NCBI GenBank assembly: GCA_009746045.1
Contig: RPFO01000156.1
Span: 2,547,588-2,611,587, forward strand
Length of the DNA: 64,000 nucleotides
Origin: Mesostigma viride
Taxonomy: Eukaryota > Streptophyta > Mesostigmatophyceae > Mesostigmatales > Mesostigmataceae
Reading direction: 5' to 3'
The position numbers were made by a program, and so were the translations under genes. The notes under the pieces are model-generated. The model searched no databases. It saw only the letters and a program-made list of their open reading frames with translations, and was not told the origin of the DNA. Position 1 is the first letter of the stretch; every line of letters starts with the position of its first letter. Below are positions 6,601 through 57,935 of this stretch, in pieces.

Positions 6601-9600
6601 GCCTTACCGAGCATGCAGTGGCCAGCCCGCATTGAGTGGATACGCGTGGATTCGCACCACCCTAATACTGGCCCACCTACCTTAAAAACCAGGGGAAGCA
6701 CATTAGCAAGTAAGTTACCATCTGGTACGCCCGATGGCTGAACGTAATTAGTGGTCATTAATTAATTAATAAGCACGTGACTGCGTCACGTGGGTGCCAA
6801 TACAGAGTAAAGGAACCTTCAACCCTACATTCACAACGAGACGGAGGGAGGGCGCCCTAGCTTTTCTCACTGCCGCAGGTGGGCAGGCCACAGAGCGCTC
6901 TCTCCACGGCATGGTGCCGGGGCGCAACACTGTGGGTGCAATACAACCAGTGCAATACCATAGGTAGGCTGACGCATAGCTTATGCTACAAATGTGAGGT
7001 GGGCGCAAGACGTCGGCTAATTAAGGCGCAAGCTGATGGCCACAAGGTGCCAGAGCTAATTGAAGGTACTACCTACTAGGGCTGTGCGCTAATATCGTTT
7101 CAAGTGCTGTAATGCCTAAGCTATCCCATAATCGATTGCCCCCATCTAGACAACTAGCTGGAGTGCTCTATCCCGGGGAGGCCCGGGGGGGCTTCCACAG
7201 TTTCTTGTTGACATAGAGGTCCCCGCCCCGCCAGTACACTTGGGGCCTCTCGGGGCTGGACTTGTGGCGGATGAAGTCGGGCCACTGGTCGCGGCGTTGC
7301 TGCTGCTGGGCTGGCGTCAGGTCGTCGTCAAGCGACCAGGAGGTGTTCACCAGCTTCTTGCGGCGAGAGAGGAACCGAACTCGGGCTGTGATGTCGCTGA
7401 AGGTGAGGACCACTGGAGGGGGCCCAGCCTTGGCCCGTGGATGGGGCAGGCGGTAGGCGCCCTGCAGTATCGCACCTGGCAGCTGCATGCACGCCAAGAG
7501 CTGTTTCTTCAGCTCGTCGAGAAGAGAGTCTGGGGTCTCCTCCGGCGCATGTCGAAGCGCCTGAGGATGACCCGGCAGCGGCGACGGTCGCGGTCAGCGG
7601 CCTCGCGGCGCGTGTCTTCCAGCTCCTGGAGCTTGGTGGTGATGGCGGTCGTGGTAGAGGATGCCTGGCTCTTGAGCAGGTCCGCCCAGGAGGCGCGAGT
7701 CGAGGGGTCATCGCTAGCCCTACCAGCAGGTTGGGCGGCGATGGTGGCCGTTCGCTCGGCGATCTCGGGGACCTGCGTGGCCAGGGCGTCTACCTTGGCA
7801 GCAACTGCCTCAAGTTTCACGGTGCCTTGGCCGACTCGGCCTTCCACCTGGTTAAGGCGGGTGGTCACAGTGGCTGTGGCCTCGGAAACTTTGGTGGCAA
7901 TGTGCTCTTGCGTAGCAGTAAACTGAGGCTGGAGCTTAAGGGCGACTCTGGCTTCAATGTTGTTGACCTTGGCCGAGAGAGTGTTGAGTGGGCCGTCAGG
8001 CGCGTTCAGGGCGGCGAGCTGCTCAGCCATCGGCGCCAGCTGCTCCGCCACTGCAGCTCGGATGGAGTCCGTGCTGGGGGAGGTGCTGCTCTGCGGGGAT
8101 GCTGCAGCTGCTGTGGCTGCCCGTCTGCGCTCATGCAGGAGGCTCCTGAGGCCAGCGTAGCCAATCTGGGTGATGTCCTGGGCGTCGCAGCGCAGGTAGC
8201 TGCACATGATGACTGCCTTCAAGTACGCCTCCGGTTCTTGAAGCAGCCATTCCCAGTCGGGCTTGGTGACCTTGTCGCCAGGGGTAGGCAGAAAAAGTTC
8301 GTCATGGCGGGCCAGGAACTTGATAACATCGTCACATTGTTCCTTCGTGAGCGTACAGATTTCCAAGATGCAAAAGTCCCGCTGGCCGGCGCCGAAGCGG
8401 CGGACATCCCATTTGGTATGGGAAGTGCGGGTTTTCTTGGGAATGGGCGACGAGTTTGGCGTAGAGCACTGCGTCGAGGGAGGCAGACCGGGGGGGAGAG
8501 CTTCGATCAGCGCGAAAAGATTGGCGTCCGCAGGAGTTGATGTCGCACGTGCTGCTGTCGACGGGAATGCCGACGACAGCTCAAAATGTTTGTCAAGGCT
8601 GCGTTTTGGTGGCATTTGCAAAATACTGCGTTACAGCCGTAACCGATTATACTAGCAGATGCGTCTTGAAAAGACGCATCTGATGCAAGTAGCCTGACTG
8701 AATTTGGGGCTCAGACGCAAAAGTTCTGAGCTCCGCCGTCAGCCATGTCCGCTCGTGGTCATATTATTGGTCAAGGGTTGCAAAAGTTCAATCCTTCTTG
8801 TAAGATGTTTGAGTACTAGCAAATCACTAGCGTTCCTTGAGCACGACCGACCGATGGATTCTATTGTAAGTGGCCCCTGATGCTGCGTGATTGCCTTGGG
8901 CACACCCGACTAATATATTATTATTAGAAGTAGTTCCCCCATATGTTAAGCAAGTACCTTGAGCACACCCGACTTCTCGATGGACGCCGCATTGCGCAGG
9001 TCACCTTCGAACAGCTGCTCGTGACAGGTGGCGCAATATAGAGGAGTAGGGGAGACGAAGCACACGTGGTAAATACGAGGGTCGAGGCACCAGTCTATGT
9101 GTCAAACAAGTGGTCAAGCACACGTGCTTTAGCACAAGCGCTAAAACACCAGCGTCAAAGCACAAGTGGTGATGCGAAAATGTGGAGGCAAACGTGTGAT
9201 GCAAAAGTAGGTGCACAAGCGCGGAAGCGCGGGCAACAAGGACACAAGCGCGGGAGTATGGGCGAGGAGACCGCCATTTTTATAAAAGGACCCATGAAAC
9301 CCTTGGTTGGCCCTGCATGCGCCGCACAAGGGGCACACGGGGTTTACTGATGTGCAGGGGTATGTCGCATGTATACTGATGTGCAGGGGTGTGTCGCATG
9401 TATACTGATGTGCAGGGGTATGTCGCATATATACTGATGTGCAGGGGTAACTAGGTACATGCAGAGCATGTGTGCATGTGCAAGGGCGTACCTTGGACCA
9501 AATAACTTATTTAATATGTCTGTATACAAGTACAAGCAAAAATTTAAACAAACACATGTGGCATGCCCCAGTCCTACACAACGAATGGCTTGGAAAAGCT

Positions 9601-57935: not shown

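Follow-up and report, generated by a model that had tools for sequence, protein, structure and literature searches.

The edges of exons, together with their splice sites, recur as copies in the adjoining introns of genes in a 64-kb window of the streptophyte alga Mesostigma viride (by the window we mean the whole stretch of 64,000 nucleotides analysed here, which is nuclear DNA). The observation that exon edges have been copied into neighbouring introns is confirmed. We consider it probable that the introns grow by pervasive local tandem duplication, with selection removing what alters the mRNA. Short local tandem duplications would arise frequently and lengthen introns, at offsets mostly of 18–230 bp; they would often be re-duplicated, would then decay, and would land on genes with little regard to exon borders. 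Duplications falling inside an exon would alter the protein and be lost unless the unit were divisible by three, and those inside introns would be neutral. Those straddling a donor or an acceptor would be tolerated, because exon and splice site remain intact in the outermost copy while splicing removes the others along with the intron. With exon interiors purged and edges tolerated, it is exon edges with their splice sites, and not exon interiors, that would recur in introns. At the DNA level the units may arise by slippage, unequal exchange or repair synthesis, and the copies themselves are presumably neutral.

Copies of exon edges in the window and its flanks

Six gene models, with open frames free of internal stops, were rebuilt in the window, those of SDR and TMEM216 being partial; they supply 36 donors and 35 acceptors, of which 34 acceptors are testable. 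Their Pfam matches are PTPLA/HACD, CwfJ C-terminal domains (CWF19L2), SYVN1-type TPR and RING (AMFR/HRD1-like), Transmemb_17 (TMEM216-like), NmrA/SDR and thioredoxin. Gene names finer than the Pfam names are labels given by us or by a first-pass annotation of this DNA.

Each edge query consisted of 30 exonic and 15 intronic nt and was aligned to at most 1 kb of its own intron, the null being 40 dinucleotide shuffles per junction. At p<0.001, junction-spanning copies are present in the window at 10/36 donors and 4/34 acceptors, and at p<0.01 at 12/36 and 4/34. The ten donors are 27638, 23268, 22009, 20723 and 31141 in CWF19L2, 36976, 37941 and 39137 in AMFR, and 52192 and 57294 in HACD; two more, 30061 and 55344, are marginal (p 0.002–0.003). 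No donor of the thioredoxin-like (2) or TMEM216 (4) models has a spanning copy at p<0.01. Ten of the 12 donors listed by the first-pass annotation are significant and two, 8958 and 34584, are marginal; nine of the ten have copies that span the junction at p<0.001, and the copy of 33882 stops 1 nt past it. Its figure of about 12 affected donors in 39 is similar to the 12/36 found at p<0.01, but the sets differ: it missed 31141, and 30061 and 55344 are absent from its list. The four acceptors that it named, 20836, 34463, 52104 and 56226, all have copies at p<=2e-4, and its units of 26, 50, 73 and 80 bp correspond to periods of 26, 49, 73 and 78 bp given by Tandem Repeats Finder (TRF).

Since it was this same window that suggested the test, the independent weight rests on 200 kb of flanking DNA. 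Flank exons are predictions from an exon caller that combines splice-site matrices with codon log-odds, both trained on the window, where it gets 24 of 31 internal exons exactly right among 35 calls. Such exon-by-exon scoring worked, and ab initio whole-gene prediction, which over-called or merged genes, was dropped. The 108 exons called in the flanks yield 10 chains, each with three or more exons on one strand; the chains contain 58 introns, from which one donor and one acceptor were excluded by microsatellite, length or N rules. Junction-spanning copies at p<0.001 occur there at 19/57 donors and 14/57 acceptors. Window and flanks together make a sample of one organism, 264 contiguous kb and 92 introns.

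Exon interiors behave differently from edges. At p<0.001, exon-internal control segments have copies in 3/552 cases (donor test) and 4/478 cases (acceptor test) in the window, and in 9/739 and 1/769 in the flanks. The first-pass annotation had set its claim against the copying of exon-internal segments; these lie far below the edges, and the claim withstands the comparison.

Pfam was run on six of the ten flank chains, two of them partial: five match (AOX, UbiA, ABC transporter, adaptor mu subunit and RIO1) and one does not. The five matched chains have copies at 12/40 donors and 12/40 acceptors, the adaptor mu subunit gene among them having 0/8 and 0/8. The chain lacking a Pfam match has copies at 6/8 donors and 2/8 acceptors, and a decoy copy may have been called as one of its exons; the chain is a nine-exon coiled-coil gene on the minus strand of the right flank (L003–L012, strand coordinates 1021–9847) and holds an array with a 118-bp unit. 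A remaining short chain has copies at 1/3 donors and 0/3 acceptors, and three chains judged doubtful (0, 1 and 9) have them at 0/6 and 0/6.

The copies are private to each junction, as the first-pass annotation had proposed. The 92 donor edges give 65 local non-self matches; elsewhere in the 264 kb they give 2, and a single edge accounts for both. The CWF19L2 exon 5 array, the sole array searched genome-wide, is found at its home locus only in the 440 Mb assembly (439.9 Mb in 2243 contigs; the search skips very common words), and 2.1 kb around the SDR gene gives one weak match elsewhere in it. Introner-like or other mobile elements bearing splice sites might come to mind, as the introns of M. 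viride are described as long and repeat-rich (PMC6947507); the published NIES-296 genome, of 442 Mb, is reported there to have introns averaging 1142 bp, with repeats in 30.1% of intron space. The hallmark of introners is similar sequence in many unrelated introns, and two elsewhere-matches for 92 donor edges in 264 kb do not display it; each copy matches its own exon. A mobile origin is already largely refuted, and we regard it as extremely improbable. An assembly artefact, through collapsed or expanded repeats or haplotype joins, is just as hard to credit. There is an N gap at about 23971–24364 in the window, beside a low-complexity tract, but the copies are diverged and unevenly spaced, hardly what read errors would give, and they recur in the flanks. 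Moreover, the published assembly, presumably the one analysed here, is described as built with 113x PacBio, 162x Illumina and optical maps (PMC6947507).

Placement of the duplications

Local duplication extends throughout the introns. In the window, 519/2175 intron-internal segments have local copies at p<0.001, or 288/1879 when microsatellite-rich queries are removed; their removal overturned an initial impression that donors are not enriched. After microsatellite masking, the intron-internal rate is 15–18% of positions in window and flanks, the flank counts at p<0.001 being 612/3435 (donor test) and 595/3430 (acceptor test). About 28% of unmasked intron bases lie in local duplications (26.4% in the window, 28.6% in the flanks), and when stretches of at most 1 kb are measured alike, 24.2% is duplicated in 47 introns versus 11.5% in 59 gene-free tiles.

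On the donor side of the window, coverage by duplications is 30% in the last 20 exonic nt and 25–43% in the first 200 intronic nt, and it is 0.4% at 60–100 nt inside the exon. The acceptor side of the window is sparsely covered: 10% of the first 20 nt of exon, 8% of the last 20 nt of intron and 0% at 20–50 nt upstream. This gap is missing from the flanks, where the same three bins have 24%, 23% and 24%. Flank coverage continues across both junctions: the outermost 20 nt of exon are covered to 29% on the donor side and 24% on the acceptor side, and the corresponding values at a depth of 60–100 nt into the exon are 3.1% and 0%. Duplication strikes exons too, and its frame-keeping products survive: TRF periods are divisible by three in 5/5 exon arrays (more than 90% exonic, non-redundant), which are few, versus 24/60 outside exons and 1/4 across junctions. 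The periods of the exon arrays, taken with the near absence of exon-interior copies, are the main evidence that tolerance, and not targeting, sets the position of what is seen.

The copies have no fixed register and no frame constraint, since among the 27 donor-spanning cases the copied exonic part varies from 12 to 66 nt (median 31) and the copy offset is divisible by three in 9. Best-copy identities in these cases run from 0.70 to 0.99, a spread that is an age series. Full tandem copies account for 7/27, the other 20 being spaced; simulation with decay alone also gives spaced-looking copies, since decay acts on the intronic portion of the unit at both sides.

Several results weigh against placement by uniform duplication and selection alone. 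When introns are matched one by one in the window (p<0.001), donors with copies number 10/33 versus 4.6 expected (P=0.004); acceptors, at 4/31 versus 4.5, are not in excess. Chained segments were merged into events, a count that supersedes one of 54 components with 9 donor-spanning and 2.24 expected. Under random placement, 2.0–3.0 of the 47 window events and 3.7–4.7 of the 109 flank events would span a donor; 10 and 17 do so. Acceptors are spanned by 4 window events, and by 14 flank events versus 3.7–4.7 expected. These expectations ignore selection on the exonic half of a copy, which diverges more slowly and remains recognisable longer, and a simulation was therefore undertaken. It included uniform tandem duplication, exon purging, decay, indels, insertions and deletions, and was scored by the same kind of detector, with parameters picked to resemble the data and not fitted to them. 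The quantity compared was edge coverage divided by intron coverage (the edge/intron ratio), pooled over the 92 introns. At donors this ratio is 1.05, versus 0.57 +/- 0.13 simulated (40 runs, maximum 0.80); with 30% late foreign DNA the simulated value is 0.81 +/- 0.15 (maximum 1.21), so that the observed ratio lies 3.7 standard deviations (sd) above simulation without foreign DNA and 1.6 sd above it with 30%. Six other parameter sets (96 runs, 58 introns) give mean donor ratios of 0.29–0.52 and a maximum of 0.81, versus 1.01 in the flanks. The pooled acceptor ratio, 0.68, compares with 0.61 +/- 0.18 or 0.82 +/- 0.17 simulated, but it comes down to 0.68 only by pooling the flanks with the low window (0.39); the flank value alone is 0.84 versus simulated means of 0.34–0.55. 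Spaced donor copies also carry less intron than simulated ones, with a mean share of 0.19 versus 0.32–0.40, whereas in spaced acceptor copies the intronic share of 0.32 is near the simulated 0.36–0.39. Finally, diverged acceptor copies keep AG in 18/21 cases versus 13.0 expected. Two short-start simulation settings, which gave up to 19 and 17 donor introns in a single run, were rejected, as the final mean intron was about 300 bp versus 1071 bp in the real data. Pooled acceptor edges need no special mechanism, although flank acceptors alone are high, and a donor excess of about 1.3–1.8 fold remains, the significance of which hinges on the foreign-DNA assumption.

One way to read this excess is that splice junctions, and donors in particular, attract duplication or favour it; intron 5' ends would then be mutational hotspots, for instance through co-transcriptional breaks. 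Donor-spanning events at 3–5 times uniform placement in both window and flanks are in keeping with such a hotspot. So are the TRF arrays, which are mostly young and of which 4/32 intronic ones span a donor versus 1.14 expected (P=0.023) and none an acceptor, and the exon-heavy composition of spaced donor copies (19/20 versus 177/269, 204/277 and 147/185 simulated). The HACD exon 8 array, moreover, is youngest beside its exon: adjacent-unit identity drops with distance from it (1.0, 0.94, 0.90, 0.76, 0.66). The same trend was sought in 18 arrays and is clear only in this one; interior arrays show a similar fall in identity at their right end, in part from the unit-walking procedure. One form of the idea, which we think doubtful, is that a process tied to transcription or splicing re-copies the exon 3' end with its donor and pushes older copies downstream, so that introns would lengthen from their 5' edge. 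If a hotspot does exist, introns would fill with near-identical competing donors. We find it rather unlikely, since the excess shrinks to 1.3–1.8 fold (1.6–3.7 sd) when exonic divergence and foreign insertions are allowed for and the copy boundaries, with 12–66 exonic nt, are out of register with the junction. Donors and acceptors, pooled without the three doubtful flank chains, stand at 29/87 and 18/85 (Fisher P=0.088). With pervasive duplication and selective loss as the preferred explanation, the donor excess may instead reflect tolerance, dilution or detection. The first-pass annotation had described the duplications as anchored to splice junctions. The recurrence of edge copies stands, but anchoring in that sense is not supported, given that intron interiors are copied at 15–18% and that the boundaries lack register. 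Uniform duplication with exon purging covers the pooled acceptors and most donor edges, leaving the residual donor excess.

Splice sites within the copies and related systems

Junction-spanning copies at 13 window donors keep GT in 39/46 cases, and for 40/46 of these copies, use of the copy would bring in a stop codon ahead of it. Splice sites were scored in window and flanks, where 28 of 92 donors and 14 of 92 acceptors have copies at this score, and 42/72 donor copies score at least as high as the real donor, which bears out the earlier claim of arrays of decoy splice sites. Among diverged donor copies GT survives in 17/30, where their identity would predict 20.6. Splice sites in the copies show no clear sign of being purged, and AG may be retained slightly more often than expected. 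Nine of the affected junctions are covered by the public annotation, and at each of them the outermost copy is the one used. For the donors 33882, 34584, 36976, 37941, 39137 and 52192 this is the first copy, and for the acceptors 34463, 52104 and 56226 the last.

The copies might be functional, as decoy donors or pseudo-exons retained to bind U1 snRNP, to regulate splicing or to delay premature polyadenylation. In favour of a function are the high scores just given, the CWF19L2 exon 2 copies, which outscore the real site, and the keeping of AG in diverged acceptor copies. However, in diverged donor copies GT decays at about the same rate as the remaining sequence, and most window copies would bring in a stop codon; a function of this kind seems very unlikely.

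Among systems already described, minisatellites at human exon–intron borders, with units of about 30 bp, duplicated splice sites and 27 intron modifications (PMC2812944), are alike in that tandem units straddle the border and splice sites are duplicated. Those human cases are reported from genes in recent segmental duplications, unlike the Mesostigma ones, which occur in ordinary genes at roughly one sampled donor in three, with identities of about 0.70–0.99. Head-to-tail units of about 10–100 bp across the boundary, the mark of such minisatellites, are found in the TRF arrays at 20565, 21043, 23026 and 57257, and in the seven full tandem cases among the 27. Intron gain by tandem duplication of AGGT-bearing exon segments (PMC3443670, PMC2891723), as described there, likewise copies splice-site sequence by local duplication, but in Mesostigma it is existing introns that are enlarged. 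Introns with donor arrays do not take both splice sites from two copies of one segment; the acceptor used lies outside the donor array, and hence no new intron arises from a pair of copies. Young Daphnia introns contain internal direct repeats attributed to the repair of staggered double-strand breaks (PMC4202315). There too, repeated local duplication lengthens introns and some repeats copy exon termini, although the Daphnia exon-end repeats are given as 4–12 bp, whereas those of Mesostigma have 12–66 exonic nt, sometimes in multi-copy arrays, in introns of about 1 kb. Introners (PMC9860276) also multiply splice sites in a genome, as families dispersed over many genes according to that account and not as copies private to each junction.

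In the cited papers, junction-spanning duplication takes the form of scattered cases; in the present sample roughly one donor in three and one acceptor in four or five is affected. What is new relative to the known systems is this prevalence and the enlargement of existing introns. We found no title or abstract opening that reports exon-edge copying in Mesostigma, in a search outside which most subscription journals lie. The copies are direct evidence that tandem duplication, besides transposons, lengthens introns. They also make Mesostigma a natural experiment in which the spliceosome has 14 5' splice sites of equal score to choose from (CWF19L2 exon 6), and CWF19L2 exon 2, whose copies have stronger donors, is a good site for testing donor choice.

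Individual junctions and the surrounding locus

The most extensive arrays are in CWF19L2, on the minus strand. The exon 6 donor (22009) heads an array at 21043..22020 with a TRF unit of 73 bp, 12 exonic nt and 13.4 copies, 13 of which have a donor 9-mer score equal to that of the real donor. This array spans −12 to +966 of the 1172-bp intron 6, about four fifths of it, and the rest of the intron lies between two acceptor-edge copies (+973 to +1197). The enlargement of introns proposed by the first-pass annotation is supported. The upstream copy of the exon 7 acceptor edge lies at approximately 20996..21036, at an offset of 186 from the real acceptor 20836 (p=1e-13). At the exon 7 donor (20723; p=9e-11) the array at 20565..20737 has a TRF unit of 26 bp, 15 exonic and 11 intronic nt, in 6.7 copies, and degenerate copies reach about 19932 (component −21..+791). 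The exon 5 donor (23268) has an array at 23026..23297, with a TRF unit of 78 bp, 30 exonic nt and 3.5 copies. Copies of the exon 4 donor (27638) are found at +63, +111 and +312 (27320..27670; p=3e-9), and those of the exon 2 donor (31141) at +66 and +136 (31000..31160; p=1e-4), with 5' splice site scores of 10.7 and 11.6 versus 5.8 for the real donor.

In AMFR, on the plus strand, the exon 7 donor (36976) has copies at +120, +218 and +382 (36930..37440; p=2e-9), the exon 8 donor (37941) one at +45 (37926..37995; p=1.5e-6) and the exon 9 donor (39137) one at +75 (39114..39225; p=1e-11). A 64-nt copy of the end of exon 4 (donor 33882; 33819..34080; p=2e-6) ends at +194; it halts 1 nt beyond the junction with GT lost and is hence outside the spanning count. 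The exon 5 donor (34584) has a marginal copy at +49, chiefly of the intron start (34578..34650; p=1e-3), and the exon 5 acceptor edge an upstream copy at approximately 34340..34370, at an offset of 119 from the real acceptor 34463 (p=2e-4). In HACD, also on the plus strand, the exon 4 donor (52192) has copies at +100 and +209 and a weak one at +443 (52164..52640; p~0), and the exon 4 acceptor edge (real 52104) has upstream copies within 51531..51920, at about 51878 and, by eye, at about 51537 (p=8e-10). An upstream copy of the exon 7 acceptor edge lies at approximately 56130..56175, at an offset of 84 from the real acceptor 56226 (p=6e-12). The array of the exon 8 donor (57294) occupies 57257..57526, with a TRF unit of 49 bp, 38 exonic and 11 intronic nt, in 5.5 copies. 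In the SDR/NmrA model on the minus strand, two short copies of the exon 3 end (donor 8958), about 63 nt apart, lie within 8825..8975 and are marginal (p=5e-4); the copy has 17 exonic nt and is without intronic homology.

The HACD model is identical across exons 1–7 to the annotated M. viride protein jgi/Mesvir1/5982, and the AMFR model across exons 4–12 to jgi/Mesvir1/5980; the Mesvir1 prefix we take to denote M. viride. For CWF19L2, no Mesostigma protein is among the best 120 of 472 matches. The annotated HACD protein Mv00736 omits exon 8 (57185–57294, plus strand), whose donor bears the 49-bp array, and has exon 9 translated in a different frame. This is likely either an annotation error or an exon-skipping product, and it is a warning for annotation, as the public model leaves out the very exon whose donor carries an array. 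Three N-terminal exons of the AMFR model (32205–32847, plus strand) are absent from the annotated Mv00734, the exon 2 and 3 acceptors being uncertain. CWF19L2 intron 4 contains a local duplication of about 0.3 kb (24900–25550; offset 332–343, segment identity 0.82–1.0), and CWF19L2 exon 4 (28836–28945) an in-frame hexamer repeat that encodes an Arg-Asp run.

An Rfam scan of the window gave no match. A satellite with a 69-bp unit, in 36 copies with 98% matches, occupies 1578–4059. Two long open frames, 7170–8630 and 59209–60603, both on the minus strand, are candidate retroelement-like frames. A protein stretch closely similar to the 7170–8630 frame recurs about 89–91 kb into the left flank block.

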